DNA from: Saprospiraceae bacterium
GTDB lineage: Bacteria > Bacteroidota > Bacteroidia > Chitinophagales > Saprospiraceae
DNA length: 64,000 nt
NCBI GenBank assembly: GCA_022842725.1
Contig: JALHOZ010000001.1
Span: 275,309 to 339,308 of the forward strand
Direction: 5' to 3'
In this document: in pieces, positions 3,001 to 25,700 of the stretch
Numbering within the stretch: position 1 is the first letter of the stretch
How the letters are laid out: each line of letters starts with the position of its first letter
Notes under the pieces: generated by a model
What the model was told of the DNA's origin: nothing
Database searches by the model: none
Seen by the model: the letters and a program-made list of their open reading frames with translations, nothing else
Translations under genes and position numbers: made by a program

Positions 3001-5288
3001 GAGGTACCTGGGTATCAAGTGCATCAGGAATTGCTTCAGTAACAAATGCAGGTTTGGTTACCGGTGTTAGTCCGGGATCTGCTACCTTTGTTTTTACAGA
3101 TGCTGCAACCACATGTCAATCTGATGCAACCAGTCCTGTGACTGTAGCTGCATCACCTACTCCAACGATTACTGGACCAACCGACATTTGTGTGGGTGGT
3201 ACGACAACCCTTGCACCATCTACAGGTGGTACATGGATCAGTAATAACCCTGCGGTTGCTACAGTAAACAACGATGGTATCGTTACTTCTATCGGACCTG
3301 GTAAAGTTACTTTTACCTTCACGTTAACAGCAACAGGTTGTACTTCAGCGGCTCCTACAGATACAGTTTCAGTTTCACACTGTTTGAATCCTGACTTCAA
3401 CGCAACTTTTGTTGATGTTCCGGTGACAGGAGATGTAAATACAAACGATAGTGTTGATCCTGCGACAGAATACGGACCTCAGGTATTGGTATCCAGTCCT
3501 GCGGGATCTTTATACACAATTCAGTTGAATGAAGACGGAACTTACGAGTTTCAGGCTAACATGGTAGGGGTTTATGTTTTCAACGTACCTGCTTGTACAC
3601 CTCCACAGGAGTCAGGCTGTCCTACAGCTGAATTAACCATTACCGTTACGGATTTTGTTGATCCTGCAGCTCAGCCAGTTGCCAATGTTGACTTTGCAAC
3701 TACCTTCCAGAATACAGCAGTGACATTATTGACACTTGCTAACGACGGATGTATGAGAATCGCAGGTTGTAGTTTGAATCCTGCATCAGTTTTGGTTACC
3801 GTTGCTCCGGCAAACGGAAGTACTTCAGTAAATGTAGCCAATGGAAATATTACTTACACTCCAAACACAGGGTATGTAGGTATAGATGTGTTGACTTATA
3901 CAGTTTGTGTTACCGGTGAGCCAACCAATTGTGCAACTGCCAAACAGTTTATCACAGTTTCAGCATCCAATGCAGACAATACAACTATCGCAGCGGATGA
4001 CTTTGCAGTTGGTCCTCAGGACACACCGATTTCAGGTAATGTCAGTACAAACGACAGTGACCCTGAAGGAGATGTTCCTTTGGAGGTAACTCCATATACT
4101 TCAAATGTACCAGAAGGTAATTTTGCTCTTCTCGCAGACGGAAGCTGGACCTTTACACCGGCAGAATGGTTCTACGGACCTGTTGAATTTACATATACCT
4201 CTTGCGATACTGTAGGTGCTTGTGCGAATGCGACACTCCACTTATTGATTGTTCCTGATCTTACGATTAAAGTAAGAGTTTATTTGGAAGGATCATTGAT
4301 GGAAAATGCTAACGCATTGGCTACAGATGGTAGTGGAAGACCATTGATGAGAGATAATCTCAGAGTCAATCCATTTACCGGAAGGAGATATATTCCTAAT
4401 TCTGATCCGTTCAGATTCCCGGTTAAATCACCAGTATTTACATTGAATAGTCCTAATGCAGTTGATACTGTTACTTTGGATGTTGCAAATACCTTAGTAA
4501 GACCAATAACTTGGGTAGTTGGAGCACCATCAGAAACATCATTTGAACCTGAAGGTACCGGTGTGATGACCAAATTTGCGACTATTCCTAATCCATCAAC
4601 AGTATTTGCTGTAACAGGACAGGAAGCCATCGTAGATTGGGTGTATATCGAATTGAGAGATAAGACCAATCCTGCTAATATCATAACAACCAGAACAGGT
4701 TTGTTACAAAGAGACGGAGATGTGGTTGATCTTGACGGTATCCATGGATTGAGATTCCCTGGAATAGCGGTCGACAACTATTATGTTGCCGTAAGACATT
4801 TCAGACACCTTGGAGCCATGACAGCAGCTGCTCAAACACCTGCCCAGCTTTTTGATCTGGTTGACTTTACAAAGGCTGATCTTCCGGTGTTTGACTTCGG
4901 TGATGATCATCCGGTATATAGTTCTGTTGATTTTACAGGATTAGCGATGAATACAGAAGCGTTTTTCGGATACAGGGCTTTATGGGCCGGTGATTTTGAC
5001 GGTAACGGAAAGATCAAGGCTTCAAACCCTGGTGACGATATGAACGTCGTATTTTTTGATGTTTTGGATTATCCGACAAACAGTACTGCTTTCGGTGGTA
5101 ATTTTAATGCCAACTTCGACTTTGCATACGGATATCTCTTAGGAGACTTCGATATGAACGGTAAGAGTAAGTTTGATAACCCGAATGACGATAAGAACAT
5201 GATGTATATTCAGTTATTGTTCTATCCATTGAATATCAACCAAGGTTTCATTGCAAACTTTGACTTTTTCATAGAACAGTTGCCTTAG
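1..5288 (+). CDS. Giant secreted Ig-like (BIG2-type) repeat protein, 5' truncated by window edge; C-terminal D/N-rich dockerin-like repeat pair
   Basis: Frame open from window start (GTG at position 3 is probably internal). About 14 repeats of the type GGTWxSxNPxVATVxNxGLVTGVxxGTATFxFTxxxGC. Ends with two copies of GDFDxNGKxKxxNPxDDxN. Confidence 0.9.
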   Translation, partial: VTVTVTNKPNAGPDQTVCAGSSYNISGTQPTTGTWSARPGNPSSGATLGLLPAGNATVTFSNAASGTYGFIYSTPTCADTMVFTVNPRPVVSITGSNSICVGATTMLSPTSGGTWVSNNPGVASVTNGGLVTALAGGSATFTFTNSNGCTNTTNAVTVNPPPTVAISGTSAVCIGSTTTLIPSTGGTWVSVFPAIASVTNGGVVTGVSAGMGRFVFTETSTNCISDTLNVQVRPVPTISLASTTICIFGTTNALPATGGTWSSTNTTIATVSNAGLVTGVGAGTVTLRWTETTTGCQSAPSSPLTVLPSPTVTLAHAVRCIGTGTTASATPSGGTWVSLNTSVATIDANTGAITTLASGIATFRYTSLNGCQNTTSPLTVNPGPTVLAGSSTLCPTTTTNLTPSTGGTWSSATTGVATVTNAGLVTAVAQGTSIMTYTETSTGCQGSLTITVQPRPLITAATPNPICVGFTSNATNTTGGSGTWTSLNPAIATINNSGLITGISVGTATLFFTSSTTFCQSLPTTITITNRPVVSITGPTQVCTGFTTTVSPTSGGTWASSNPAVATVDNGGNVLAVSPGTAFFTFTASSGCVSDPTAPITVFANPPTSFTGPNSICVGQTTTVNPTTGGTWSSSATGVATITNAGLITGVSAGTSQLVYTQTATGCQSTPLTVTVNPKPTVALTGPGNICIDSTSTVTPTTGGVWASSNAAAATITNAGIITGIAQGTAIFTFTSTAGCPSDPIISVAVMPRPTITMGPANICIGTTTTLTASATGTWSANNPSIATINSLTGVVTGVAEGIATFRFTSTNGCVSQNSGIVTVSPKPITVLNGPNSICVGRTTNISPTTGGTWQSTNIAVATISNAGLITGVSAGTARFIFTNTTTGCISDTSVVVTITQGPAVSITGDDELCIGETTNLSPNSGGTWASNSPLVASVTNGGLVTALTAGQATFVFTDAAGCKSDPTLPVIVHPKPSVAVSGPSLICVGGNTNLSPNSGGTWVSSASGIASVTNAGLVTGVSPGSATFVFTDAATTCQSDATSPVTVAASPTPTITGPTDICVGGTTTLAPSTGGTWISNNPAVATVNNDGIVTSIGPGKVTFTFTLTATGCTSAAPTDTVSVSHCLNPDFNATFVDVPVTGDVNTNDSVDPATEYGPQVLVSSPAGSLYTIQLNEDGTYEFQANMVGVYVFNVPACTPPQESGCPTAELTITVTDFVDPAAQPVANVDFATTFQNTAVTLLTLANDGCMRIAGCSLNPASVLVTVAPANGSTSVNVANGNITYTPNTGYVGIDVLTYTVCVTGEPTNCATAKQFITVSASNADNTTIAADDFAVGPQDTPISGNVSTNDSDPEGDVPLEVTPYTSNVPEGNFALLADGSWTFTPAEWFYGPVEFTYTSCDTVGACANATLHLLIVPDLTIKVRVYLEGSLMENANALATDGSGRPLMRDNLRVNPFTGRRYIPNSDPFRFPVKSPVFTLNSPNAVDTVTLDVANTLVRPITWVVGAPSETSFEPEGTGVMTKFATIPNPSTVFAVTGQEAIVDWVYIELRDKTNPANIITTRTGLLQRDGDVVDLDGIHGLRFPGIAVDNYYVAVRHFRHLGAMTAAAQTPAQLFDLVDFTKADLPVFDFGDDHPVYSSVDFTGLAMNTEAFFGYRALWAGDFDGNGKIKASNPGDDMNVVFFDVLDYPTNSTAFGGNFNANFDFAYGYLLGDFDMNGKSKFDNPNDDKNMMYIQLLFYPLNINQGFIANFDFFIEQLP
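240..3390 (+). repeat. About 14 tandem Ig-like repeats, period ~220 nt (~73 aa), within first giant ORF
   Basis: Recurrent 'GG-T/V-W..S..' and 'NGC/TGC' motifs in translation; each unit carries a Cys pair. Confidence 0.85.
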
Positions 5289-5298
5289 GGCAATTCAG

Positions 5299-5375
5299 GT
5301 GTATCCCGACTGTTTTTTAATCTTTTTTCGGTCAAAGATTGAAAAACAAAAGGGTCGGGATACACCCTTTTTTTA
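5299..5375 (+). terminator. Long-stem intrinsic terminator between giant ORFs 1 and 2
   Basis: GGTGTATCCCGAC (5299-5311) pairs with GTCGGGATACACC (5355-5367). Inner near-perfect stem TGTTTTTTAATCTTT/AAAGATTGAAAAACA. Followed by T-tract. Confidence 0.85.
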
Positions 5376-5404
5376 TCTCGTTTTTTTATTATAAAAGTTA
5401 GGAA

Positions 5405-8400
5405 ATGAAAATAAGAAACTTATGGTGTGCCATAGTATTTGGTATACTGTTTTTCCAGAACGGGTTTTCCCAAATTACCAATTTGGATTACCAAATACGG
5501 TTTAATCCTGCCAATTGCAGATGGGATTGTTTTATTGTAATCAATGGAGGGTCTGCAACCTCACCTTCACAAAGGACACAAAGTAATGCCCAGTACTCAG
5601 TGGTTGTACCCACAGGTTCGACGGTGTCCGTTGCTCAAAATTTTAATCCCATTCAGAATAACCTGAATTATACAGGAACAATTCCTACCGTTTGGTCGGA
5701 AGGAAGCCGGATAGTTTCACCTGCAGTAGAACCACAGTCGGATTTTTATGGGTTTACACCTTCATTAAACCCAACTTCATGGTTTAATAATATTGTTGCG
5801 GGAGATACCATCAGATTATTTTCATTAAACATTACCCCAACGCCAAATTGTGCTTCAGGCGTCAGAATTTTCAGAAATGGAATAGATCCCCCATCATCTG
5901 CCCCTGGTATGGGAGGTGGTGACTTTTCCAATGGTTATACCCTGGGTGGTATAGCTCAAAGATATCGGGCAAATCTGCCTAAAGTAAATCCTCCTGCTCC
6001 GGTTTTAAATGCAACCACCACATGCAGCAGAGGTGTCGAAATAGACCTTTCAGTGACAACAACATCTTGTCTTAATCCAATGACATACAGCTGGTCAGGA
6101 CCCAATGGTTTTACCGCTACCACACAAGATGTCAATATAAATCCGGCTACTTTGGCTAACACAGGACAATATACTGTAACGGTTACCAATGCAAGAGGTT
6201 GTTCTGCAACCAGAACAATAGAGGCCGTCTCCAAACCGAACGCAGGAAATAATTTTACAGGGTGCGCATCACAACAATATAATTTACAAGGAACGGAACC
6301 CAATACCGGGACATGGTCTCCTTTAGGAGCCAATCCTGCAGGGGCAACTTTAATTCCCGGTGCCAATGGTGCTGCTTCCGTTAGTTTTGATGGAACAGCA
6401 ATTGGTAATTATTCATTTATATATGATACCGGAGCATGTAAAGATACAGTAGTTGCTACCATAAACCAAGCTGATGCAGGTGATGATCCTGCCTCTGTCA
6501 ATTGTAATGTCACTGGTACAGCGTCATTAGGTGCTACCGGTACAGGTTTTTGGTCTTTAGGAGCAGGTAGTGCCGGAACAGTAAATTTTTCAAATGCATT
6601 AGACCCTAATACCACCGTATCCGGATTCAGCGTTCCTGGTATTTATTATTTTGTCTGGACATCCCAGTCATGTACAGACATGGTGCAGTTGACCGTAGAT
6701 GACGAATGCAGTTGTGCCATTACAAATAATGTATTAAATGCTGTCAATCCATCAACTTACTGTGGTTTGAGCAGCAATATCACCATAACAGGGTCTAACC
6801 CGACACCTGCCGGAGGCGAATACCTTTGGATTTACAGTTTGAACAACGGATTGTATTCAAGTGCAACGGGTACCAATAATCAACAAAATTATACTACAGG
6901 TATCCTGGGACAAGGAGCACACCGATTCAGACGTGTCTATAGTTTGCCAAGCGCACCCGGATGTCTGGATACTTCAAATGTGGTGTTATTGACGGTGAGC
7001 GAATCACCTGCTGCGCCTACAAACTTAACAGCAAACCCCAATCCTTCCTGTATAGGTCAAACGATAAACTTAAGTGTAACCAATATAAGCGGGATAACGT
7101 ATACGTGGACTGCTTCTTCTGCAAATGCAGGACTAAACAATTCCACATCTTCTACAAATACTATGTTGCCGGTTTCTTCAGGAAATTATGGTGTTTCAGT
7201 GACTGCTTCATCTAACGGATGTACTTCGTCACCGGCTTCCATTAATGTTCTGGTGTATGATACACCACCAACACCGAATATCAACTCTGTCACTTTTACA
7301 AACCCAACCGTTTGTAATGGTAGTGACGGAACCATTTCTTTTTCCGGGCTTACGCCGAATACATCTTTTATTATTAACTACACCCGAAACAGTACAAATC
7401 AATCCGCCAATGTTACTACGTCAGGTACCGGAGTGGGTATCATTACCGGACTTTCCGCGGGAACTTACACGAATTTTACGGTGGTGACATTTAACGGATG
7501 TCCTTCGGGTACTTATGCCGGTCCGGTAAACCTTGTGGACCCCAATGCACCTGCGGCTCCGGCCAATCTGGCTGCAAGTCCGAACCCAACTTGTCAAAAC
7601 GTGCCCATCAGTCTTTCTGTTACCAATAATCCGGGAGCAACGTACACGTGGTCTTCCACATCAGCCGGAGCAGGATTAAATTCAAGTATTACCAATACAA
7701 ATACCATGCTGCCTACAACCAGTGGGTTTTTTAACATCATGGTTACACAAACAGTAGCAGGCTGTACCTCACCGGCTGCCAATCTTGGAATTTCAGTAAA
7801 TGCATCGCCTCCTACACCAACAGCAGGTAGTGTGACTTCAACAAATCCGACAACTTGTGGAGGTGCAAACGGCACGATTACATTATCTGGGTACCTTACC
7901 AATACTTCTTATACAGTAGATTATTTATTCAATGGTAATCCGGTGACAACCACCATAACCAGTAACGGTTCTGGAAATATTGTTATCAGCGGAAGAAGTG
8001 CCGGTTCTTATTCAAATTTCAGAATTACCAATGTGTCAGGTTGTGCATCCGCAGTGTTTCCCGGACCGGTTGTTTTGACCAATCCTTCGGCTCCTGCAGC
8101 ACCTTCTAACCTTACTGCTAATCCGAATCCTGTATGTATGGGGTTGACGGCAGCTCTAACCGTGACGAATAATCCGGGAGCAACTTATACCTGGACAGCA
8201 AGCAACGCCAACGCTGGTTTGACTGCTTCTGCAAATTCAAATACATCAATGGCACCTTTAAGTACGGGAACATACACCATAAGCGTGACCCAAACTGTCG
8301 CAGGATGTACATCTCTTCCTGCTTCCCTGAGTGTAGTTGTAAATCCCGGTGCACCGGTTTTGACAGGTGTGACAGGAACGAATCCTTCTACTTGTAGTGG

Positions 8401-11400
8401 AAGTGATGGAATCATTACTATTTCAGGTGCAGCAAATAATACAACATATACCGTTAATTATACGAAAAACGGAAGTCCGGTTTCAACATCTTTAACTTCC
8501 AATGCTTCCGGACAAATTGTGATTTCAGGACAAACATCTGGTGTTTATGCTTCTTTCAACGTAACCAACAGCTCAAACTGTACTTCTAATACACTTGCAG
8601 GACCTGTTTTATTGACAGACCCGAATGCTCCTTCAGCACCGGCAAACCTTACTGCCAATCCAAATCCTGTTTGTGCCGGAACAACAGTAAATTTATCTGT
8701 GACCAATAATCCGGGAGCAACCTATACCTGGACAGCTTCAAATGCAAATGCAGGTTTGGTAGCTTCAACTAGCAATACTACGACAATGACGTCTAATGTT
8801 GCAGCTACTTACACCATTTTGGTTTCTCAGACAGTTGGTGGATGTACTTCACCCACAGCATCAGTGCAGGTTGTGGTAAATCCTTTGCCTGCAACTCCGG
8901 TAGCCGGACAATTTACGTCAACGAACCCATCGACTTGTGGCGGAACCAATGGAAGCATCAGTATTTCAGGTTTAATTCCAAATACTCAGTATTCTTTACA
9001 ATATTCAAGAAATAATGTCACTCAAAATATAAGTTTGACAGCTAATGGCACAGGAATCATAACGATTCCTAATCTTACAGCCGGAACGTATAATAATTTC
9101 CGCTTGACCAACAGTAATAATTGTCAATCAGGAGTTTCAACTCACTCAATAAGTTTATCTGATCCGGGCGCACCAGCTATTCCACAGAATCTGACGGCCA
9201 TCCCAAATCCCGTTTGTCTCGGAGCATCAGTTAATCTATCAGTGACCAATAATCCGGGAGCAACTTACCTTTGGACTGCTTCCTCCGCCAACGCAGGTCT
9301 TACGACTTCTTCGACCAATACGACTTCAATGTTGGCTACCGTCGCCGGTTCATATACTATTAATGTAACTCAGACGGTTGCAGGTTGTACTTCAGATCCT
9401 GCACAAATCTCTGTTGTTGTAAATGCGAATCCACCTTCATTAAGTGGTACAAATGTCACAGGAGTAAACCCAACATCTTGCGGAGGATCAAATGGTCAGA
9501 TTAATATTTCCGGGTTGGCAAATAATACAATCTATACGTTACAATACAGTGTAGGAGCAAATACATTAAACGTTACAGTAACTTCTAACAGTTCTGGTAT
9601 AGCTTCAGTTACAGGGTTATTGGCAGGTAGTTATTCGAATTTCAGATTGACCAATGCGTCTTCTTGTTCTTCCAATACTTTCCCTGGTCCGATAGTTCTT
9701 TCAGATCCTTCTGCACCTGCGATTCCGGGATTGACAGCTTCACCAAACCCTGCTTGTCTGGGAACAACGGTTAATTTTACAGCAACCGGAGCATCAGGGG
9801 CCACATTTTCGTGGTCAGCAGGCTCTTTACAAGCTGGTTTGGGTTCTTCCAATACTGCTACAAACTGGATGATGCCGACTTCAGCAGGAACTTTTGTGAT
9901 CAGCGTGACCCAATCTTTGGGAAGTTGTTCTTCACCTGCTGCTACAGTTTCTGTATTGATCAATCCTGTTCCGCCTACACCAACAGCGGGTAATGTAACC
10001 AGCACTAACCCAACAATTTGTGCCGGTACAAACGGAACAATATCTCTTGCAGGATATCCGGCAAATCAGACATACAATGTTACTTACAGCAGAAATAATG
10101 TTCAGGTAACTGTTTCTGTTACTTCAAATGGTGTTGGTATTATCACGATTTCAAACCTTACAGCAGGCACATACAGTAATTTTTCTGTTACAAGTGCTGC
10201 AGGTTGCGCTTCCGGTATTTTTGCCGGACCTGTTAGTTTGAATGATCCGAATTCACCAGCTGCTCCTGCCAATCTTAATGCAGTACCGAACCCGGTATGT
10301 ATTGGAAATCAGGTAAATCTGAGTGTTACCAATACATCAGGTGCTACCTATACATGGACCGTGAGCCCTGCAGGAGCAGGTTTGGGTACCAGCACTTCAA
10401 ACACAAACACAATGAATCCTACTTTGGTAGGTTCATATACAGTTCAGGTATCACAGACTATTGCAGGATGTACATCACCTAATGCGAGTGTGGTAGTTGT
10501 TGTTAATCCGGTACCAGCTACACCTGATGCGAATACAGTTTCCAAAGTTGATCCCACATGTGATAATGCTAACGGAAGTTTACTTATATCAGGATTGGTA
10601 GCCAATGCAGATTATACCGTTCAATATTCTTATAATAACAGTCCAAGATCAGTTAATGCAACTTCCAATAATTCCGGAGTTATTACAATTACAAATCTTG
10701 CCGGCGGTCAATACACAAATTTCAGGTTGACCAATGCTTTTGGTTGTACTTCAGGACTTTATGCCGGACCGGTCAATCTGATTAATCCGGGTTTGCCTTC
10801 TGCACCGAGCGGAATACGGTTTTCACCGGATTTTGTTTGTATTAAAAATAATGTGGTATTAAATGTTGATCCGATTCAGGGAGCAACCTACAATTGGTAC
10901 ACTTCCAGCCCGTTGGCAGGATTGTCTCAAAGTACTGGCGCTTCAACTTCAATGGTCCCTGCAGCAGCCGGATTGTATGCTATTAGTGTGACTCAAACCA
11001 TAAACGGTTGTACATCACCTCCGGCATCTATTGTAGTGGAAGTGAGAGGAGATTGTTTTAATCCTGATTTTGATGTAACATATGTTGATATTCAGGTTAC
11101 CGGAAATGTAAGTACCAATGATGGTGCTTCAGGTGCTTCATATACTTCAATTCAACCGGTGGCGGGCAATCCTTCACCATGTATTCCTTCTTTGCAAAAT
11201 GACGGTACATACATTTTTGTGTGTAGTGTTGCAGGGGTTTACCAGTTTGAAGTGAATTCATGTACCTCTTCCTGTGATGTTGTCCCTTTGGTTATCACGG
11301 TATTGATGCAGAATGTCAATAATAAACCACCGGTGGTAAATCATGATTATGCAAGGACAAAAATGAATATTCCAATTGAAATAGAAATTTTAGTAAATGA

Positions 11401-13588
11401 CAGATGTCAGAATTCATTGAGTTGTGCTTTAAATAATCCAACGATTGTTACACCTCCTACAAGAGGAAGTTATAATGTTTTGACCAAAATGTATTCACCT
11501 AACAGTAATTTTATCGGAATTGACTCATTCAGGTATGAAGTATGTCAGACGCCTGTAGCTTCTCCGGTTAATTGTCAGAGAGCCTGGGTGTATATTACGG
11601 TTGTATCATTACAGGCACCGAATATTACCAATGGAATGGACGATTATGCTCAATCAGCTTATAATACGGCTCTTTCCAGAAGTGCTGCTTCAGGCTTATT
11701 GGCCAACGATACAGATCCTGAAGGTGACAATCAATCTGTTGTTGCATTTACATCAAATATTTCAGGTGTTGGAAATCTTGCAGTAAACAGTGATGGTAGT
11801 TATACTTTCACACCGGCTACAGGCTTTTACGGACCTTATTTCTGGCCTTACAGAGTTTGTGATAATCTCGGAGCTTGCGATAATGCGACTTTACATATTT
11901 TGGTAGAACATGAAAATCTGGCCAGTAAAGTTGGTAATTTTATTTGGTTGGACAATAATGCCAACGGAATTCAGGACATCGGAGAATCCGGTATGGCAAA
12001 TTGTCAGGTAAGACTGTACAATGATTCCGGAGTTATGGTGGCTTCAACCACAACAAGTGCTAACGGAGCTTATGAATTCGAAAACATAGCTGCAGGTAAC
12101 TATTTCATGAGGGTTATGACACCAACGAATTATGTTTATTCACCGGCACATGTGGGCGATCCGCTGACAGATAGTGATATTACCGGAACCATGGGAGCGG
12201 GTACAACCGGTTTTTTCCAGGTTGTTCCGGGAGAAGACAGAATGGACATTGATGCTGGAATGTATATTTGTTCAAGAGTATCGGGATACCTTTGGTATGA
12301 TTATCTGATGAATGACAGAAAAGATAATTTTGAAAATGGTATGAACGGACTTTTTGTCGAATTGTGGCGTAATGTAAACGGTACTTTTGAAAAAGTGGCA
12401 CAGGCTACTACAGGCAGACAACCGGGTACCGCCTCAGAAGACGGATATTTCAATTTTCCATGTGTTCCTCCGGGAGAGTACTATCTGAGGGTTGATTTGC
12501 CATTGATCGGTTTGGTAAGGGTCAGACCAAATATTGGCAATGATCCGACAAGAGACAGTGACCTGACCAATGCAAACGGTCCAATGACAACCAATACATT
12601 CAACCTGACACCGGGCCAACACAAGTCCGATCTTGCAGGCGGATTTTATCCAATGGCATCAGCAGGTAACAGAGTTTGGGTCGACGAAAACCATAATGGT
12701 ATTCAGGAAGATGGCGAACTACCGGTATCAGGTGTTGTAGTTGAAGCTCGTGATGCAAATACACATGCTATCAAAGGAGTTTCAACAACAGATGAAACAG
12801 GTGAATACAATATTGAATATCTCGAAAAATCAGATGTTTATCTGAAGTTCAGACTTCCTTCCACCCATACTGATTTTACAAGAACCTATGCACGGATTGG
12901 AGATGATGCCATGAATAGCGACGTTGACAATTCATTCGGACCTTGGACAACCAGAGCTGTAGCCATGGAGCCAAATCTTTTAAATCCTCATATAGACCTT
13001 GGTATCGTCGCAGGTGTACTTCCGGTGACCTGGGTCAATGTCAATGCTTCAAAGGATCAGAAAGGTCAGCATGTCATCCAATGGGAAACGGCCAATGAGG
13101 TCAATCTCAGTCATTATATTGTAGAAAGAAGTATGCACAATACAGACAATTTTGTACCTGCAGGCGACAAAATATTGCCTCTTGAAGGACAAAACATTAA
13201 TAAAATTTATAGTGCATTAGATAGGGATAATCAGAATTTTGGTGTCTATTATTACAGAATCAAACAAGTTGATTTAGACGGTAAGTTTACTTATAGTTCC
13301 ACCGTTTCTTTGAGAAATGAATATGATTATAATGTGAGCGTTTATCCTTCACCGGCAACTCAATCAACCATCGTCTCTGTAAGTCTGCCAAAAGAAGGAC
13401 ATATCTCCATTGATCTGTTTGATCTGAACGGAAAACACATTGCCAAACTAAGGGAATCAAGTGAGTTTGACAAAGGTAACCATCCGATTGAATTAAATCT
13501 CTCAAACATCAACAGTGGCGTATATTCATTATCGATTGTCATTGAAAATCAGGTTGTCACCAAGAAGCTGGTGATTTTATCAAAATAA
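5405..13588 (+). CDS. Giant secreted repeat protein with SdrD_B-like domains and T9SS type-A-like C-terminal sorting domain
   Basis: Signal peptide MKIRNLWCAIVFGILFFQNGFSQ. Seven ~180-aa tandem repeats. Three SdrD_B-like domains (GNFIWLDNNANGIQDIGESG..., GNRVWVDENHNGIQEDGE...). C-terminus VSVYPSPATQSTIVSVSLPKEGHISIDLFDLNGKHI...SGVYSLSIVIENQVVTKKLVILSK. Confidence 0.92.
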   Translation: MKIRNLWCAIVFGILFFQNGFSQITNLDYQIRFNPANCRWDCFIVINGGSATSPSQRTQSNAQYSVVVPTGSTVSVAQNFNPIQNNLNYTGTIPTVWSEGSRIVSPAVEPQSDFYGFTPSLNPTSWFNNIVAGDTIRLFSLNITPTPNCASGVRIFRNGIDPPSSAPGMGGGDFSNGYTLGGIAQRYRANLPKVNPPAPVLNATTTCSRGVEIDLSVTTTSCLNPMTYSWSGPNGFTATTQDVNINPATLANTGQYTVTVTNARGCSATRTIEAVSKPNAGNNFTGCASQQYNLQGTEPNTGTWSPLGANPAGATLIPGANGAASVSFDGTAIGNYSFIYDTGACKDTVVATINQADAGDDPASVNCNVTGTASLGATGTGFWSLGAGSAGTVNFSNALDPNTTVSGFSVPGIYYFVWTSQSCTDMVQLTVDDECSCAITNNVLNAVNPSTYCGLSSNITITGSNPTPAGGEYLWIYSLNNGLYSSATGTNNQQNYTTGILGQGAHRFRRVYSLPSAPGCLDTSNVVLLTVSESPAAPTNLTANPNPSCIGQTINLSVTNISGITYTWTASSANAGLNNSTSSTNTMLPVSSGNYGVSVTASSNGCTSSPASINVLVYDTPPTPNINSVTFTNPTVCNGSDGTISFSGLTPNTSFIINYTRNSTNQSANVTTSGTGVGIITGLSAGTYTNFTVVTFNGCPSGTYAGPVNLVDPNAPAAPANLAASPNPTCQNVPISLSVTNNPGATYTWSSTSAGAGLNSSITNTNTMLPTTSGFFNIMVTQTVAGCTSPAANLGISVNASPPTPTAGSVTSTNPTTCGGANGTITLSGYLTNTSYTVDYLFNGNPVTTTITSNGSGNIVISGRSAGSYSNFRITNVSGCASAVFPGPVVLTNPSAPAAPSNLTANPNPVCMGLTAALTVTNNPGATYTWTASNANAGLTASANSNTSMAPLSTGTYTISVTQTVAGCTSLPASLSVVVNPGAPVLTGVTGTNPSTCSGSDGIITISGAANNTTYTVNYTKNGSPVSTSLTSNASGQIVISGQTSGVYASFNVTNSSNCTSNTLAGPVLLTDPNAPSAPANLTANPNPVCAGTTVNLSVTNNPGATYTWTASNANAGLVASTSNTTTMTSNVAATYTILVSQTVGGCTSPTASVQVVVNPLPATPVAGQFTSTNPSTCGGTNGSISISGLIPNTQYSLQYSRNNVTQNISLTANGTGIITIPNLTAGTYNNFRLTNSNNCQSGVSTHSISLSDPGAPAIPQNLTAIPNPVCLGASVNLSVTNNPGATYLWTASSANAGLTTSSTNTTSMLATVAGSYTINVTQTVAGCTSDPAQISVVVNANPPSLSGTNVTGVNPTSCGGSNGQINISGLANNTIYTLQYSVGANTLNVTVTSNSSGIASVTGLLAGSYSNFRLTNASSCSSNTFPGPIVLSDPSAPAIPGLTASPNPACLGTTVNFTATGASGATFSWSAGSLQAGLGSSNTATNWMMPTSAGTFVISVTQSLGSCSSPAATVSVLINPVPPTPTAGNVTSTNPTICAGTNGTISLAGYPANQTYNVTYSRNNVQVTVSVTSNGVGIITISNLTAGTYSNFSVTSAAGCASGIFAGPVSLNDPNSPAAPANLNAVPNPVCIGNQVNLSVTNTSGATYTWTVSPAGAGLGTSTSNTNTMNPTLVGSYTVQVSQTIAGCTSPNASVVVVVNPVPATPDANTVSKVDPTCDNANGSLLISGLVANADYTVQYSYNNSPRSVNATSNNSGVITITNLAGGQYTNFRLTNAFGCTSGLYAGPVNLINPGLPSAPSGIRFSPDFVCIKNNVVLNVDPIQGATYNWYTSSPLAGLSQSTGASTSMVPAAAGLYAISVTQTINGCTSPPASIVVEVRGDCFNPDFDVTYVDIQVTGNVSTNDGASGASYTSIQPVAGNPSPCIPSLQNDGTYIFVCSVAGVYQFEVNSCTSSCDVVPLVITVLMQNVNNKPPVVNHDYARTKMNIPIEIEILVNDRCQNSLSCALNNPTIVTPPTRGSYNVLTKMYSPNSNFIGIDSFRYEVCQTPVASPVNCQRAWVYITVVSLQAPNITNGMDDYAQSAYNTALSRSAASGLLANDTDPEGDNQSVVAFTSNISGVGNLAVNSDGSYTFTPATGFYGPYFWPYRVCDNLGACDNATLHILVEHENLASKVGNFIWLDNNANGIQDIGESGMANCQVRLYNDSGVMVASTTTSANGAYEFENIAAGNYFMRVMTPTNYVYSPAHVGDPLTDSDITGTMGAGTTGFFQVVPGEDRMDIDAGMYICSRVSGYLWYDYLMNDRKDNFENGMNGLFVELWRNVNGTFEKVAQATTGRQPGTASEDGYFNFPCVPPGEYYLRVDLPLIGLVRVRPNIGNDPTRDSDLTNANGPMTTNTFNLTPGQHKSDLAGGFYPMASAGNRVWVDENHNGIQEDGELPVSGVVVEARDANTHAIKGVSTTDETGEYNIEYLEKSDVYLKFRLPSTHTDFTRTYARIGDDAMNSDVDNSFGPWTTRAVAMEPNLLNPHIDLGIVAGVLPVTWVNVNASKDQKGQHVIQWETANEVNLSHYIVERSMHNTDNFVPAGDKILPLEGQNINKIYSALDRDNQNFGVYYYRIKQVDLDGKFTYSSTVSLRNEYDYNVSVYPSPATQSTIVSVSLPKEGHISIDLFDLNGKHIAKLRESSEFDKGNHPIELNLSNINSGVYSLSIVIENQVVTKKLVILSK
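7010..11050 (+). repeat. Seven tandem ~540-nt (~180 aa) two-domain repeats in second giant ORF
   Basis: Repeat starts (PxTPxxxxVTxTNPTxCxGxNG...) at about 7264, 7809, 8350, 8890, 9430, 9970, 10513. Paired with (A)PANLTANPNPVCxGxxVxLSVTNNPGATYTWTAS... Confidence 0.85.
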
Positions 13589-13599
13589 AACCAAAAATT

Positions 13600-13636
13600 T
13601 CCGGAAAAAGTATGAAAGTACTTTTTCCGGATTTTT
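13600..13636 (+). terminator. Intrinsic terminator after second giant ORF
   Basis: TCCGGAAAAAGTA TGAAAG TACTTTTTCCGGA followed by TTTTT. Confidence 0.85.
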
Positions 13637-13797
13637 CCCGGAAAAACCAAAAACCGACTAAGCTAATAAGAATTTTATTCTGATTATGTATTTTTTATCG
13701 GAATTAAATCAATAATACTTGGAAGGCTTTCCTGGAGATTATAAAAGTTTGAATTCTAAGAATTCGTTTTTACATTACATTTTCAAGGTAGCTAAAC

Positions 13798-16700
13798 ATG
13801 ATAAGAAAATTTATCGCCCAATTCTTTTTTATTTTTTTAATGACTATCCCGTTTACAGTTTCTGCACAATTGGATTCTGTAAAATATATATTGGTTTATG
13901 ACACAACAACGTGTCTCTACAATGTGTGTATTAAAATTGTCGGAGGGAGTGCCACTAGTTTAGGGCAACGTACACAGGCAAACTCAACCATCAGTATGGT
14001 GATGAGTGCATCTGACACGATGGAAATTGTTCAATTGTATATGCCTTTGAGATATAATCAAACGTATACCGGGACAGAGCCCACCACCTGGAATATTTCT
14101 ACCCAGGTATTTGCTCCTGCAGCACAGCCTCAAAGTAATTTTTACACTATAGTACCTGCATTATCTCCGGCTTCACAATATAATAATCTTGCTACCGGCG
14201 ATACCATTAAGTTGTTTTCAATCAGAGTATGGAATAAAGCAACCGGAGAACCCTTATTAAATTGTGGACGTACCATCAGATTTTTCAGAAATGGAATAGA
14301 CCCGGGATCAGGAGCTCCCGGAATGAACTCCGGAGACTTCAGCAACGGATTTACAGTAGGTTCTTTTAAACAGTTATACAGAGGAAATCTCAACCCTGTA
14401 ACTCCACCAAAACCAAAATTAAATTATGAAATTAATTGTACAAACGATATAAGTCTGGATTTACAGCCTCAAACCACACTTTGCCAACAACCTTTAAAAT
14501 TCGGTTGGTCAGGACCCGGTTATTCTTCTTTGAATGAAGATATCATGATCACACCGGCTTCAACCTTTAACAACGGTATTTATTCGGTCACCGTGACTGA
14601 TGAATATGAATGTGAAGAAATTCTCGATATCGAACTTGAAAGAAAACCAAACGCAGGAACTGATATTGTACTTTGTGGCGGTGGTTCAACCACATTGTCA
14701 GCAAGTGCAGATAATCCCGGTACATGGACTTCTGACCCTTTAAACGGACCGGGAGCCAATATTTCAAATACTTCCAATCCATCAACCAATGTAACTTTTG
14801 CACCGGGATCTACCGGTGTTTACGCATTTATATACGAAGCTTCGGTTTGTAGTGACACAGTAAGAGTCACTGTACTGGATGCGGTTTCCGTAAATATTGT
14901 CGGAGATAATCAGTTTTGTCCCGGCAATTCTGTGACATTAAGCACAGATGCCGGAAGCGGTTTTGTTTGGAGCACCGGTGCAACAACACCTGCTATCGAC
15001 GTGTCAGCACCAGGAACTTACAGAGTGACCATCACAGATATGGTAGGTTGTACTGCGACGGCAAGTCGCGTTGTTACAGCCTTAACTCCTCCAAATGCAG
15101 TTATATCAGGAGATAATGATGTTTGTCAGGGAGGAAGCGTCACTTTTACAGCCAGTGGAGGCGTAAGTTATGAATGGAGTTCAGGGTTTCCGGGAGCAAC
15201 CATAACCGTTTCAGACAACAGCCCTCAGGTGGTCACCGTGACCGATGCCAATGGATGTACCGATACAGCCGAAAAATCATTGATCATCAATCCTGAGCCA
15301 AATGCTTCTATATCCGGTGATGATGCTGTTTGTACAGGTGGAAGTGCCACTTTTACTGCAAATGGAGGTGTGAGTTACCTTTGGAATTCTGTCACACCCG
15401 GCGCATCGATCGTTGTTTCAAACAATACCCCGCAAGTGGTTCTGGTCACTGACGCCAACGGATGTACAGCAACAGCCGAAAAAACATTGACAATTAATCC
15501 GGAACCTGTAGCCACCATAAGTGGAGATGATGAAATTTGTGCCGGTAATACGGCCATCTTCACCGCAAATGGTGGGAATACTTACCTTTGGCAATCCGGT
15601 TCTTCAAGTGCTACCATTACGGTATCTAATAATACCACACAGGTGGTTACCGTAACCGATGCCAATAATTGTACAGCCACAGCTGAAAAAACATTGACCA
15701 TCAATCCTAATCCTGTTGCTTCCATTTCAGGCGATAATGAGGTTTGTGACGGCGAAAGTGTCACTTTTACTGCAAGCGGAGGTATAAGTTATGAATGGAA
15801 TCTTGGTACACCAGGAGCGAACATATTGGTTTCTGATAATTCCACTCAGGTTGTTACCGTGACGGATGCCAATGGTTGTACAGATACAGCTCAAAAAACG
15901 TTAAATATTTTAGCTTCACCTGTTGCCGTTATTTCAGGCGACAATGAAGTGTGTGACGGTGGAAGTGCCACTTTCACTGCCAGTGGCGGAGTAAGTTATT
16001 TATGGAATATTGGTGCGCCTGGCGTTACCATTTCGGTTTCAGATAATACAACCCGAATAGTGACCGTCACTGACAGTAACGGATGTACAGCCACAGCAGA
16101 AAAGACTTTAACAATAAATACAAATCCAACAGCTAACATTTCCGGTGATGATGAGGTATGTTTAGGTGGAAGCGCTACGTTCACTGCGAATGGTGGGGTG
16201 ACTTACATTTGGAGTGTCGGTAATCAGACAACCCAAAGCATTATCGTTTCTACAGCAACAAATGCCATAGTGACGGTTACCGACGCGAATGGATGTACAG
16301 ATACGGCTGAAAAAACATTGTCCATTAATCCAAATCCGGTTGCTTCGATTTCAGGGGATGACGAGGTTTGTATGGGAGGAAGTGTTACATTTACCGCAAA
16401 TGGCGGAAATACCTACCTTTGGAGTATCGGTAATCAGACAACACCAAGTATCACCGTTTCCAACGGAACACCTGTCGTAGTGACAGTAACGGATGCGAAC
16501 GGATGTACAGATACAGCTGAAAAAACATTGTCCATTAATCCAAATCCGGTTGCTTCGATCTCAGGGGATGACGAAACTTGTTCAGGCGGCAGTGTCACGT
16601 TTACCGCAAATGGCGGAACTTCTTATGATTGGAATATAGGCGGCCAAACAACTCAAAGTATAACTGTTTCCACGGCAACTACAGCAATAGTGACAGTTAC

Positions 16701-19700
16701 CGATGCAAATGGATGTACAGATACTGCTGAAAAAACATTAACAATCTATACTAATCCTACAGCGAGTATCTCAGGTGATGATGCTGTTTGTTTGGGTGAA
16801 AGCGCAACTTTTACGGCAAATGGCGGAACTTCTTATAATTGGAATATAGGTGGACAAACAACCCAAAGTATAACTGTTTCCTCGGCAACTACAGCCACAG
16901 TGACGGTTACCGATGCGAATGGATGTACCGATACCGCAGAAAAAACATTGACCATTCATCCTGTTCCTGATGCCGGTGCAGATCAGAGTGTAAATTGTTA
17001 TGCTACAGATGTGGCGACGCTTCAAGCAATGGGAGCAGGAACATGGACACTGGTTTCGGGACCCGGCACAGCAACCATTACAAATTCCAATGCACCAAAT
17101 ACAACCGTCAGTGGATTTTCAGGACCAGGCACATATGAACTGATCTGGTCAAATGGATTCTGTGAAGACAGAGTTTTGATTACCGTAGGAAATAATTGCG
17201 CTTGTCCTCCGGGAGATAATCAGATTACATCACCTGCAATTACAGAATCGTGTGGAACATATCCTGTAACCAATATAATAGGAAATAATGCAACACCTTC
17301 AGGTGGAAGCTATATTTGGGAAATGGAGACTAACGGAGGTGGATTTGTTGCCGCTTCAGGAACCAACAATCAAAAAGATTACACCACACCGGTTTTGAAT
17401 CCGGGAACATACAGAATCAGAAGAGTTTACAATGTGATGGCCAATGGTCAGGATTGTGTATACGAAAGTAATATAGTACAAATAGAAGTTTACGCCAACC
17501 CAACAGCTTCCATCACAGGTAATGACGAAGTGTGTGACGGCGGAAGTGTGACGTTTACTGCAAATGGCGGAACATCTTATGATTGGAATATAGGCGGCCA
17601 AACAACCCAAAGTATAACTGTTTCCACAGCAACTACAGCAATAGTGACAGTTACCGATGTGAATGGATGTACAGATACGGCTGAAAAAACATTGACCATC
17701 AATACTAATCCTACAGCGAGCATCTCAGGTGATGATGCTGTTTGTTCAGGTGGAAGTGTCACGTTTACCGCAAATGGCGGAACATCTTATGATTGGAATA
17801 TAGGTGGACAAACAACCCAAAGTATAACTGTTTCCACGGCAACTACAGCTATAGTGACGGTGACAGATGCGAACGGATGTACAGATACGGCTGAAAAAAC
17901 ATTGACGATCAATGCAAATCCTACAGCCGTTATCTCAGGGGATGACGAGGTTTGTTTGGGAGGAAGTGTTACGTTTACCGCAAATGGAGGAAATACCTAC
18001 CTTTGGAGTATCGGTAATCAGACAACACCAAGTATCACCGTTTCCAACGGAACACCTGTCGTAGTGACAGTAACGGATGCGAATGGATGTACAGATACTG
18101 CTGAAAAAACATTAACAATCAATACTAATCCTACAGCGAGTATCTCAGGTGATGATGCTGTTTGTTTGGGTGAAAGCGCAACTTTTACGGCAAATGGCGG
18201 AACTTCTTATAATTGGAATATAGGTGGGCAAATAACTCAAAGTATAACTGTTTCCACAGCAACTACAGCCATAGTGACGGTGACCGATGCGAATGGATGT
18301 ACAGATACTGCTGAAAAAACATTGACGATCAATACAAATCCGGTTGCTTCAATTTCAGGAGATGATGATGTTTGTTCAGGCGGTAGCGTAACTTTCACTG
18401 CAAATGGTGGTGTGAGTTATCTTTGGAACATTGGCAGTCAGACAACCCAAAGTATCACCGTTTCCACGGCAACTACAGCAATAGTGACGGTAACCGATGC
18501 GAATGGATGTACAGATACCGCAACAAAAACGTTAACTGTTTATCCTGTACCGAACGCCGGTGCAAATCAAAGTGTAAATTGTTATGCTACAGATGTGGCG
18601 ACGCTTAATGGGACAGGAACAGGAACATGGACACTGATTCCGGGACCCGGCACAGCAACCATTACAAATTCCAACGCACCAAATACAACCGTCAGCGGAT
18701 TTTCAGGATCAGGCACATATGAACTGATCTGGTCAAACGGATTTTGTGAAGACAGAGTCCTGATTACCGTAGGAAATAATTGTGCTTGTCCTCCGGGAGA
18801 TAATCAGATTACATCACCTGCAATTACCGAAGCTTGTGGAACATATCCTGCAACGACTATCATCGGAAATGATGCAACACCATCAGGTGGCACCTACGTT
18901 TGGGAAATGGAGACTAACGGCGTAGGTTTTGTTGCCGCTTCAGGAACCAATAATCAGAAAAATTACACTACACCGGTTTTAAATCCGGGAATATATAGAA
19001 TCAGAAGAATATATAATGTAATGGCTAATGGCCAGGATTGCGAATACGAAAGCAATATTATACAAATAGAAGTTCATGCCAATCCAATAGCTTCAATTTC
19101 CGGCGACGACGAAACCTGTTCTGGCGGCAGTGTCACTTTTACTGCAAATGGTGGTGTAAGTTACCGATGGAATATCGGCAATCAGACAACCCAAAGCATT
19201 ACTGTTTCCACAGCAACAACAGCCATAGTGACGGTTACAGATGCTAATGGATGTACAGATACCGCTGAAAAAACATTGACCATCAATGCAAATCCTACAG
19301 CCGGTATCTCAGGGGATGACGAGGTTTGTTTGGGCGGCAGTGTCACGTTTACAGCAAATGGAGGAACTTCTTATAATTGGAATATAGGCGGCCAAACAAC
19401 CCAAAGTATAACTGTTTCCACTGCAACAACAGCCATAGTGACGGTGACAGATGTGAATGGATGTACAGCCACCGCTGAAAAAACATTGACGATCAATACA
19501 AATCCTACAGCCGGTATCTCAGGGGATGACGAGGTTTGTTTGGGAGGAAGTGTCACGTTTACTGCAAATGGAGGAACTTCTTATGATTGGAATATAGGTG
19601 GACAAACAACTCAAAGTATAACTGTTTCCACGGCAACTACAGCAATAGTGACAGTGACCGATGCAAATGGATGTACGGATACTGCTGAAAAAACATTGTC

Positions 19701-22700
19701 CATTAATCCAAATCCGGTTGCTTCCATTTCAGGAGATGATGATGTTTGTTCAAGCGGCAGTGTAACTTTCATTGCAAATGGTGGAAATACTTACCTTTGG
19801 AGTATTGGTAATCAAACAACCCAAAGTATCACCGTTTCCACGGCAACTACAGCAATAGTGACGGTGACCGATGCGAATGGATGTACAGCTACTGCTGAAA
19901 AAACATTGACGATCAATACAAATCCGGTTGCTTCCATTTCAGGAGATGATGATGTTTGTTCAGGCGGTAGTGTAACTTTCACTGCAAATGGTGGAGTAAC
20001 TTACGATTGGGGATTGGGTAATACAAATGCCATCATTACCGTTTCTGACAATACGCCTTGGGTAGTCACTGTGACTGATATCAATGGTTGTACAGACACT
20101 GCAACAAAAACGTTAACCGTTCATCCTGTACCGGACGCCGGACCGGATGTTTCTTTAAATTGTTATGTAACTGATGAAGCATTCCTTAATGCGATAGGTT
20201 CAGGAACATGGTCTTATGCTAACGGACCTGGACTTCCTTATATTTTGGATGTAAATCAGGCTAATACTATAGTAAATAATTTTCCATCTCCTGGTACATA
20301 CAATTTGATATGGTCAAACGGATTTTGCGAAGACCTGATGTCGATTACTGTCGGAGACCTTTGTGATTGTCCGACGGGTGTAAATAATATTTCTGCACCG
20401 TCAAATACAACAGCATGTAATGAATTTCCACAAACAATGATTATCGGTAACGATGCCACACCTTTTGGCGGCAACTATATTTGGGAAATCTCGATAAACG
20501 GAGGAGCTTTTGCTAATGCTCCCGGATCAAATGTCACAAGAGATTATATTACAAATATACTTAACGAAGGAACTTATACTTTCCGAAGAATTTACCGGGT
20601 AATGGCCAATGGTCAGGATTGTATTTACGAAAGTAATCCAATCACAATAACTGTTTTTCCAAATCCGGTAGCTACGATTTTAGGTGAAGACGCAGTTTGT
20701 GATGGTCAAAGTACAATCTTTACTGCAAATGGTGGAGTAACTTACGATTGGGGATTGGGTAATACAAATGCCATCATTACCGTTTCTGACAATACGCCTT
20801 GGGTAGTCACTGTGACTGATATCAATGGTTGTACGGCAACTGCCCAAAAAACGTTAACCATTCACCCGAATCCTATCGCTTCTATAACCGGTGATGATTT
20901 TGTTTGTCAAGGTGGAAGTGTTGACTTTACCGCTGAAGGTGGATTGTTATACAGTTGGAATACAACAGAAGCAACTCAAACTATTTCTGTTTCAGATGCT
21001 TTAACAAAAATTGTCACTGTAACAGATGCCAACGGATGTACAGATACCGCTGAAAAATCACTTAATTTTTACACAAACCCAACAGCCTCTATCACAGGTG
21101 ATGATTTTGTTTGTGAAGGCGGAAGTGTAGACTTTACCGCTGAAGGTGGGTTGTTATACAGTTGGAATACAACAGAAGCAACCCAAACTATCTCTGTTTC
21201 AGATGCTTTGACAAAAATAGTCACAGTCACTGACATAAACGGATGTACAGCCACTGCTGAAAAAACATTGACAGTTCACCCTGTTCCTGATGCAGGTTCG
21301 GATATTTCTGTAAACTGTTATGTATCTGATGTCGTAAGCATGAATGCAAATGGTTCAGGTACCTGGTCTCAAGGGATTGTTTCAGGAACTTTTATCATTT
21401 CGAATGTTAATAATGCGATTACAACAATAAGTGGATTTAGTGCACCGGGAACCTATCAGTTTTATTGGTCCTCACCATTCTGCGAAGACGTAGTCACCAT
21501 CACCGTAGGTGACAATTGTGATTGTCCTTCAGGTGATAACCAAATCATAGCACCGGCTTTAACAGAAATATGTCAATCATATCCTGCGACCGTGATTACA
21601 GGAAATGACGGAAGCCCGACAGGCGGAACATATGTGTGGCAAATCAATGCCAACAACACTGGTTTTGTATCAGCAGGAGGCATCAACAATACAAAAGATT
21701 ATACGACATTAGTATTACCTGTCGGCAATTATATCATCAGAAGAGTTTATACGGTTGTGGCCAATGGTCAGGATTGTATCTACGAAAGCAATCCGGTGAA
21801 TATAACGGTAAATCCAAATCCTGTAGCTACCATTTCCGGTGACGAAACAGTTTGCCAAGGCGAAAGCACAACTTTTACGGCGAGCGGCGGAACAAATTAC
21901 CTTTGGAGCACAGGTCCGAATACACCAAGTATTACGTTGTCTGCAGCTTCAACGGTTATTGTTACTGTAACAGATGCCAACGGATGTACAGCAACCGCTG
22001 AAAGAACATTGACGGTAAATCCAAATCCTGTAGCTACCATTTCTGGTGACGAAACAGTTTGCCAAGGCGAAAGCACAACTTTCATTGTGAGCGGAGGAAC
22101 AGATTACCTTTGGAGTACAGGTCCGAATACACCAAGTATTACGTTGTCAACAGGTTCCACAGTCATGGTAACCGTGACAGATGCCAACGGATGTACAGCA
22201 ACTGCTGAAAGAACATTGACGGTTAATCCTAACCCTACAGCCACCATTTCCGGTGACGACGCAGTTTGTTTAGGCGAAAGTACAACGTTCACTGCGAATG
22301 GCGGAACAGATTACATTTGGAGTACAGGTCCGAATACACCAAGTATCACGTTGTCTACAGCTTCAACAGTAATTGTTACCGTAACAGACGCCAACGGATG
22401 TACAGCGACTGCCGAAAGAACGTTGACGGTTAATCCTCTACCAAATGCCGGCCCGGATCGATCTGCCAATTGTTATGTAAGTGATATTGTCACCTTAGTA
22501 GCGACAGGAACAGGTACCTGGTCCTGGGCATCAAGCAGTTTGACGGCAACGATCGATAACGTCACTTCTGCAACTACCACCATCAGTGGTTTCCCATCAG
22601 CAGGAACCTACGAATTGATTTGGTCCAACGGAAATTGTGAAGACGTAGTAACCATCACTGTAGGCGACAATTGTGATTGTCCTTCAGGTGATAATCAAAT

Positions 22701-25700
22701 CATAGCTCCGGCTTTAACAGAAATTTGTCAATCCTATCCTGCAACTTTGATTACAGGAAATGACGGAAGCCCGGCAGGCGGAAGTTACGAATGGCAAATC
22801 AATGCCAACAACAGCAGCTTTGTATCAGCAGGTGGCATCAACAATACAAAAGATTATACGACAGAAGTATTACCTGTCGGAAATTATATCATCAAAAGAT
22901 TATATACTGTTGTAGCCAATGGTCAGGATTGTATCTATGAAAGCAATCCGGTGAATATAACGGTAAATCCAAATCCTGTAGCTATAATTTCCGGTGACGA
23001 AACAGTTTGCCAAGGTGAAAGCACAACTTTCACAGCGAGCGGCGGAACAGATTACCTTTGGAGTACAGGTCCAAATACACCAAGTGTTACGTTGTTTACT
23101 TCTTCAACGGTTTTTGTTACTGTAACAGATGCCAACGGATGTACAGCGACTGCTGAAAGAACATTGATGGTCAATCCGAATCCTGTAGCCACCATTTCCG
23201 GTGACGACGCAGTTTGTCAAGGAGAAAGTACAACTTTCACTGCGAATGGTGGAGTAGATTACGTATGGAATACCAGCAATCAGACAACCCAAAGTATTAC
23301 GGTTTCTACAGCAACAAATGCCGTAGTGACAGTAACAGACGCCAACGGATGTACAGCAACTGCTGAAAGAACTTTGACAGTAAATCCAAATCCTGTAGCC
23401 ACCATTTCCGGTGACGACGCAGTTTGTTTAGGAGAAAGTACAACTTTCACTGCGAATGGTGGAGTAGATTACCTTTGGAATATCAGCAATCAGACAACCC
23501 AAAGTATTACGGTTTCTACGGCAACAAATGCCGTAGTGACAGTGACTGATATCAACGGATGTAAAGCAACTGCTGAAAGAACGTTGACGATTAATCCTCT
23601 TCCAAATGCAGGTCCTGATCGTTCTGCCAATTGTTATGTAAATGATGTCGTCACCCTGGCAGCAACGGGAACAGGTACCTGGTCCTGGGCATCAAGCAGT
23701 TTGACGGCAACCATTAATAATACAAGTTTTGCATCAACCACCATAAGCGGTTTCCCATCAGCAGGAACCTACACATTGATTTGGTCGGACGGAAATTGTG
23801 AAGACGTAGTCACAATCACTGTAGGCGACAATTGTGATTGTCCTTCAGGTGATAATCAAATCATAGCTCCGGCTTTAAGAGAAATTTGTCAATCCTATCC
23901 TGCAACTTTGATTACAGGAAATGACGGAAGCCCGGCAGGCGGAAGTTACGAATGGCAAATCAATGCCAACAACAGCAGCTTTGTATCTGCAGGTGGCATC
24001 AACAATACAAAAGATTATACGACAGAAGTATTACCTGTCGGAAATTATATCATCAAAAGAGTTTATACTGTTGTGGCCAATGGTCAGGATTGTATCTACG
24101 AAAGCAATCCGGTGACTCTGACCGTTCATCCAAATCCTGTAGCTACCATTTCAGGAGACGAAACAGTTTGTTTTGGAGAAAGTACGACTTTCACAGCAAC
24201 CGGCGGAGTAGATTACCTTTGGAATATCAGCAATCAGACAACCCAAAGTATTACGGTTTCTACGGCAACAAATGCCGTAGTGACAGTGACTGATGTCAAC
24301 GGATGTACAGCAACTGCTGAAAGAACTTTGACAGTAAATCCAAATCCTGTAGCCACCATTTCCGGTGACGACGCAGTTTGTTTAGGAGAAAGTACAACTT
24401 TCACTGCGAATGGTGGAGTAGATTACGTATGGAATACCAGCAATCAGACAACTCAAAGTATTACGGTTTCTACGGCAACTACATCAATAGTGACAGTGAC
24501 TGACGTCAACGGGTGTACAGCGACTGCCGAAAGAACGTTGACGATTAATCCGAATCCTGTAGCCACCATTTCCGGTGACGACGCAGTTTGTTTAGGAGAA
24601 AGTACAACTTTCACTGCGAATGGCGGAGTAGATTACTTATGGAATATCAGCAATCAGACAACCCAAAGTATTACGGTTTCTACGGCAACAAATGCCGTAG
24701 TGACAGTGACTGATATCAACGGATGTAAAGCAACTGCTGAAAGAACGTTGACGATTAATCCTCTTCCAAATGCAGGTCCTGATCGTTCTGCCAATTGTTA
24801 TGTAAATGATGTCGTCACCCTGGCAGCAACGGGAACAGGTACCTGGTCCTGGGCATCAAGTAGTTTGACGGCAACCATTAATAATACAAGTTTTGCATCA
24901 ACCACCATAAGCGGTTTCCCATCAGCAGGAACCTACACATTGATTTGGTCAGATGGGAATTGTGAAGACGTAGTAACCATCACTGTAGGCGACAATTGTG
25001 ATTGTCCTTCAGGTGACAACCAAATCATAACACCGGCTTTAACAGAAATATGTTTTGAATTTACTACTACCCAAATCCTAGGAAATGATGCAACTCCGTC
25101 AGGCGGAAGTTATGAGTGGCAAATCAATGCCAACAACAATGGTTTTGTATCAGCAAGTGGCATCAACAATACAAAAGATTATACGACAGAAGTATTACCT
25201 GTTGGAAGTTATATCATCAGAAGAATGTATACAGTTGTGGCCAATGGTCAGGATTGTATCTACGAAAGCAATCCGGTAAATATAACGGTAAATCCAAATC
25301 CTGTTGCCACCATTTCCGGTGACGACGCAGTTTGCCAAGGCGAAAACACAACTTTCACAGCAACTGGCGGAACAGATTACCTATGGTCAACGACAGAAAC
25401 CTCTTCAAGCATTACGGTTTCAACAGCATCAACCGTAATCGTAACCATAACAGATGCAAACGGATGTACAGCAACTGCAGAAAGAACATTGACGGTTCAT
25501 CAAAATCCTGTAGCCACCATTTCCGGTGATGATACAGTTTGTTTGGGAGAAAGTACCACTTTCACTGCGAATGGTGGAGTAGATTACCTATGGAATACCG
25601 GCAATCAGACAACCCAAAGTATTACGGTTTCTACTGCAACAAATGCCATAGTGACCGTGACTGATGCTAATGGATGTACAGCGACTGCCGAAAGGACATT

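Follow-up and report, generated by a model that had tools for sequence, protein, structure and literature searches.

A dockerin-related C-terminal module on a giant predicted secreted Bacteroidota protein without a standard T9SS sorting domain, and its CTD-bearing neighbour

The stretch of DNA analysed here (64,000 nucleotides from a Saprospiraceae bacterium, referred to as the window) starts within ORF1, a gene for a giant predicted secreted repeat protein that ends in a conserved module of 343 aa and not in one of the standard C-terminal sorting domains (CTDs) of the type IX secretion system (T9SS). The module defines a family with a fixed C-terminal position and a distinct loop chemistry, it is connected to the dockerins via its relatives, and the gene directly downstream of ORF1 (ORF2) encodes a protein that does carry a CTD. 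We consider it somewhat better than an even bet (a probability of about 0.55) that the module is a dockerin-type plug that tethers the CTD-less giant to its CTD-bearing neighbour, rather than a standard CTD. The features on which this reading is based are collected in Table 1.

Table 1. Features of ORF1, of its C-terminal module and of the downstream paralogues (positions in the window)
Feature	Position	Strand	Basis or remark
ORF1, giant predicted secreted repeat protein, ~2032 aa	3..5288	+	open frame
Last Big_9 (bacterial Ig) domain ahead of the module	3984..4238	+	Pfam PF17963, residues 1328-1412
C-terminal module, 343 aa, conserved family	4257..5285	+	alignments, AlphaFold, 42/297 genomes
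First part of the module, rich in beta-strands, X-module-like position	4257..4982	+	DSSP of AlphaFold model
Asp/Asn loop 1, 16 residues, DFDGNGKIKASNPGDD	4992..5039	+	column statistics, 71 members
Helix after loop 1, module residues 261-270	5037..5066	+	AlphaFold/DSSP
Asp/Asn loop 2, 16 residues, DFDMNGKSKFDNPNDD	5145..5192	+	column statistics, 71 members
Helix after loop 2, module residues 312-321	5190..5219	+	AlphaFold/DSSP
Conserved C-terminal tail E-Q-L-P	5274..5285	+	P in 66/71 members
ORF2, downstream paralogue, proposed partner	5405..13588	+	signal peptide, N-terminal domain, Ig repeats, SdrD_B, type A CTD
ORF2 N-terminal beta-sandwich domain	5468-5977	+	AlphaFold pLDDT 95.1
ORF2 type A CTD	about 13340-13576	+	TIGR04183 40.8 bits, cut-off 23
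ORF3, third paralogue	13798..30267	+	same N-terminal domain, 13864-14391

Bounds and occurrence of the module

The start codon of ORF1 lies ~0.8 kb 5' of the window (about G000:C1:274498), and the full frame (L144:4478-10594) includes a signal peptide, assigned by inspection (MKTRILLAVAFLGSFFLTPNVQAQ), and an N-terminal domain. ORF1 and ORF2 are paralogues (38% identity over 349 aa), and their homology stops just past the last Big_9 domain, at the point near 4257 where the module begins (LTIKVRVYLEG...). This boundary was confirmed by a stand-alone copy on contig C45 of the same genome, in which the signal peptide is directly followed by the module. A preliminary description of the sequence had recognized two copies of an acidic motif in the last ~100 aa of ORF1, preceded by a VDWVYIELRD...DGDVVDLDG...RHFRHLGAMT region. 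Both copies are present, as loops 1 and 2, and the duplication and the preceding region stand, but the unit is the entire module and the region is a part of it: the motifs IVDWVYIELR, QRDGDVVDLDG and VRHFRHLGAMT sit in the beta-rich first 240 aa, which had been missed together with the downstream CTD-bearing gene.

The module was modelled by AlphaFold with a mean pLDDT of 90.2 and a pTM of 0.89, as a beta-rich first part followed by two loop-helix units that form a tandem F-hand fold (block-mean pLDDT >=86). A beta-helix without metal, which had been named earlier as a structure that would refute the reading of the motif, was rejected as the model has a helix after each of the two loops and nothing that resembles a beta-helix.

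No Pfam or NCBIfam family matched the C-terminal 342 aa of ORF1 at E<=1, and a comparison of 71 aligned members with both collections yielded scattered weak matches and no family that covers the module. Neither did we find a paper that describes it in the open-access literature. In the own genome the module recurs at four further loci, five full copies being alignable to the window module at 43-54% identity, and contig C6 has two more divergent copies; recurrence on this scale far exceeds chance. The suspicion that related C-termini recur in the Bacteroidota was also borne out: in an even draw of 297 Bacteroidota genomes, 42 (about one in seven) contain the module, and a scan of the GTDB collection put it at 77 loci. 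These loci are the best-scoring 77 of 462 relatives, and counts derived from them are therefore not an unbiased census, the draw of 297 genomes providing the fairer frequency. Three of the loci belong to records titled Gemmatales (L041), Gammaproteobacteria (L050) and Thiothrix (L071), which are likely to be mis-binned contigs because at least the neighbour in L041 is of a Bacteroidota type.

The position of the module in its proteins hardly varies. It ends at most 9 aa from the stop codon in 129 of the 135 ORFs that have a stop, which leaves no room behind it for a type A CTD. Secreted proteins with nothing but the module after the signal peptide were found as well, for instance four consecutive ones at positions 2913-6618 of locus L072.

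Loop chemistry and relation to dockerins and CTDs

Among the 71 members, which are diverse, the first position of loop 2 is Asp in all, an acidic residue (D or E) closes loop 1 in 70 and loop 2 in 68, and positions 3 and 5 are almost always N, D or S. Both loops of one module mostly have the same length, either 12 or 16 residues: 47 members, including that of the window, have two loops of 16 residues, and 15 (about a fifth of the family) have two of the canonical 12. In the branch to which the window belongs, four residues are inserted into both loops, before the last Asp.

The module is like dockerin type I (PF00404) in its two loop-helix units with D-x-N/D-x-D/N-G loops and in its place at the C-terminus of a secreted protein. 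The cut-off of the Dockerin_1 model was exceeded at the C-terminal loops of the module in genomes G033, G156, G014, G244, G132, G236 and G240, and 6 of the 71 aligned members gave weak matches to the model (E<=0.1, best E 0.0054). A profile made from 14 tails with 12-residue loops retrieved PDB dockerins (2vn5_B, E 1.1e-5); a single-sequence search with one canonical tail retrieved nothing, and neither the module nor the family profile found anything relevant when compared by sequence with the PDB. The loop pair of the window had no match to Dockerin_1 or to EF-hand models at E<=1, consistent with the 4-residue insertion, and its membership follows from descent within the family and not from a direct match. 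We therefore claim dockerin membership for the canonical-loop branch, whose members pass PF00404, and call the window branch dockerin-related by descent only. The dockerin-like Asp/Asn spacing that was read from the sequence before is, by descent, right in kind, with a lineage-specific loop of 16 residues: the 12-residue loops of the relatives, their Dockerin_1 matches and the loop-helix arrangement in the AlphaFold model agree with it, but the window copy is not recognized by the models.

The module also differs from the dockerins of cellulases in its carriers, which are giant proteins with repeats, made by Gram-negative bacteria that have a T9SS. The order of its parts is that of the X-module-dockerin dyads of type II cellulosomal systems (2b59, 4wi0), in which a beta-sandwich directly precedes a C-terminal dockerin. 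Such dyads came at ranks 2 and 4 in a Foldseek comparison with 350,542 PDB chains (E 0.049 and 0.11, not significant), and most of the other top matches were transthyretin-like folds, none of them significant. Unlike the X-module, however, the beta-rich part is larger (~240 aa) and has conserved motifs of its own.

The T9SS CTDs, of which a 2023 review names types A, B and C (PMC10202324) and for which there are the models TIGR04183, TIGR04131 and NF033708, resemble the module in being C-terminal and in being found on the same kinds of passenger. The three models did not match the window module at E<=1 and were absent from the matches listed for the 71 members (E<=0.1), in line with the initial observation that ORF1 lacks a standard T9SS sorting domain. 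The module is, moreover, more than four times longer than a type A CTD, it has a dockerin-like ending and, unlike the CTDs, it occurs alone after a signal peptide.

Neighbouring genes and the putative partner domain

ORF1 is part of a series of four consecutive paralogues that have the N-terminal domain in common and in which the module alternates with CTDs: the gene 5' of the window ends in a type A CTD, ORF1 in the module, ORF2 in a type A CTD and ORF3 in a divergent, weakly type B-like CTD (TIGR04131 E 1.7e-5, 24.9 bits, below the cut-off of 35). A gene of this N-terminal domain family was found directly downstream, on the same strand and usually close, of 44 of the 102 long module ORFs that have 1 kb or more of sequence behind them. 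Another 34 are followed by a different gene with a signal peptide (called in the neighbours by a simple hydrophobicity rule), often one that carries a domain that is cohesin-like by eye. For 22 of the 102 there is no signal-peptide gene within 700 nt downstream, and such a neighbour is also absent downstream of the own-genome module copies on contigs C13 and C27.

Of 45 scanned neighbour proteins, 35 match the type A CTD (TIGR04183), and several of those without a match end in CTD-like variants; the set includes the products of ORF2 and of the gene that precedes ORF1. The CTD-bearing neighbours are mostly encoded on the same strand as the module gene and close by. The own genome (4.6 Mb) contains 150 type A CTD matches, which corresponds to an estimated few percent of its genes, and at an assumed background of 4% the binomial P of finding 35 in 45 is about 1e-40.

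The N-terminal domain itself is present in only 3 of the 297 genomes, all of which contain the module, and in both of the foreign genomes among these it lies directly downstream of a module. At nine loci the gene that comes after a module gene encodes both the N-terminal domain and the module, the arrangement expected for a chain. The divergence of the module correlates with that of the downstream N-terminal domain with r 0.77 and with that of the domain in its own chain with r 0.70 (13 loci, without species control), which is suggestive only of the module tracking the downstream domain slightly more than its own. A further alternating arrangement was seen on contig C6 of the own genome (L145, 4258-13998, minus strand), where genes for module proteins (5092-6750 and 8032-13998) take turns with genes for small proteins composed of a signal peptide, a cohesin-like domain and a type A CTD (4258-5088 and 6864-7988).

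The role proposed for the N-terminal domain of the partner is that of a cohesin (PF00963). The domain in the window, a confidently modelled beta-sandwich, has no match to PF00963, and neither do the own-genome copies of the ORF2-type domain; PDB cohesins were not found by sequence or profile searches with the ORF2 domain. Foldseek did not favour a cohesin either, the best ranks being taken by adhesin and pilin domains, none significant, and a type II cohesin appearing at rank 21 (E 0.24). Real PF00963 cohesins, scoring over the cut-off, do share an ORF with the module in G014:C12 (460 aa) and G078:C14 (787 aa). A profile comparison between the N-terminal domain and the downstream domains elsewhere in the phylum gave no detectable relation, which points to at least two kinds of partner domain. 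At loci of the own genome other than the module loci (on contigs C11, C17, C5 and C57), Dockerin_1, Cohesin and a type A CTD were found together in one large open frame.

Proposed mechanism and alternative explanations

We propose that the C-terminus of ORF1 acts as a divergent dockerin-type module, in which a beta-rich domain is followed by two loop-helix units that each probably hold one calcium ion. The module would make a non-covalent contact, and its likeliest receptor would be the N-terminal beta-sandwich of the CTD-bearing ORF2, so that the CTD-less giant would be held by a protein whose transport and anchoring are the work of the T9SS. Genes with both domains in series could then give rise to head-to-tail chains (socket...plug, socket...plug, socket...CTD), closed by the CTD-bearing member. 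The specificity of the contact and the crossing of the outer membrane by the CTD-less protein are predictions of the same kind. The ligand-like positions of the loops, the loop-helix pair, the Dockerin_1 relatives, the C-terminal position, the gene order and the cohesins of G014 and G078 argue for such tethering; that Foldseek does not single out a cohesin, that a signal-peptide neighbour is missing for part of the module genes and that the models fail to recognize the window copy count against it. More tentatively, there may be a widespread plug/socket system in the Bacteroidota, in which untagged giants are held in T9SS-exported sockets, series of genes build fibres and export is possibly carried by the partner.

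The main rival explanation is that the module is a T9SS sorting signal of a further kind, in addition to types A, B and C, read by the translocon or by a shuttle, with the downstream gene as just another cargo. Type B CTDs, too, often adjoin a partner gene, and they need a cognate shuttle that is often encoded nearby (PMC12618676). The module is C-terminal like a CTD, it is found in the window where a homologous passenger has a type A CTD, and SprA is encoded in 42/42 module-bearing genomes versus 228/297 overall. At the genus level the latter association could be due to chance (P about 0.21), since the genomes without SprA belong to very few genera, and SprA co-occurrence was dropped as proof of T9SS dependence after this count. 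The proteins composed of a signal peptide and the module, like the four in a row in L072, would have nothing else to export, and the kinship with dockerins points to a binding module; both speak against a sorting signal and nothing more, an explanation that we regard as doubtful.

It is also rather unlikely that the module serves at the terminus for adhesion or as a cap, stabilised by calcium and either homodimeric or bound to a ligand other than a protein (a glycan or the cell surface), and that the neighbour reflects mere co-expression of surface proteins. The stand-alone secreted copies, the compact and confident stand-alone fold predicted by AlphaFold and the roughly one fifth of long module genes without a signal-peptide neighbour would fit such a role, but it leaves the frequency of type A CTDs in the neighbours, far above the genome-wide few percent, without an explanation. 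That the acidic motif is purely structural, without a metal, and resembles dockerins by convergence seems very improbable: the window copy scores nothing against Pfam and the Foldseek matches to X-module-dockerin dyads are not significant, but loop positions 1, 3, 5 and last are D, N, S or E almost throughout, and relatives have canonical 12-residue loops with Dockerin_1 over the cut-off in several.

What is new here is a widespread module that no family entry describes and that is tightly paired with a CTD-bearing neighbour. If tethering through this pairing is true, a class of T9SS-associated surface proteins is overlooked when CTDs are counted, assembly of the dockerin type extends beyond cellulosomes to giant adhesin-like proteins in Gram-negative bacteria, and ORF1 and ORF2 offer a testable protein pair for how CTD-less giants reach the surface.

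A gene for the type IX secretion component PorG (NF052316, 172.9 bits, over the cut-off) is located at 33031-33846, shortly after the series of giant genes, and is flanked by genes for a MalA alpha-glucosidase-like glycoside hydrolase (30610-32988) and a starch/glycogen synthase-like protein (35126-35938).
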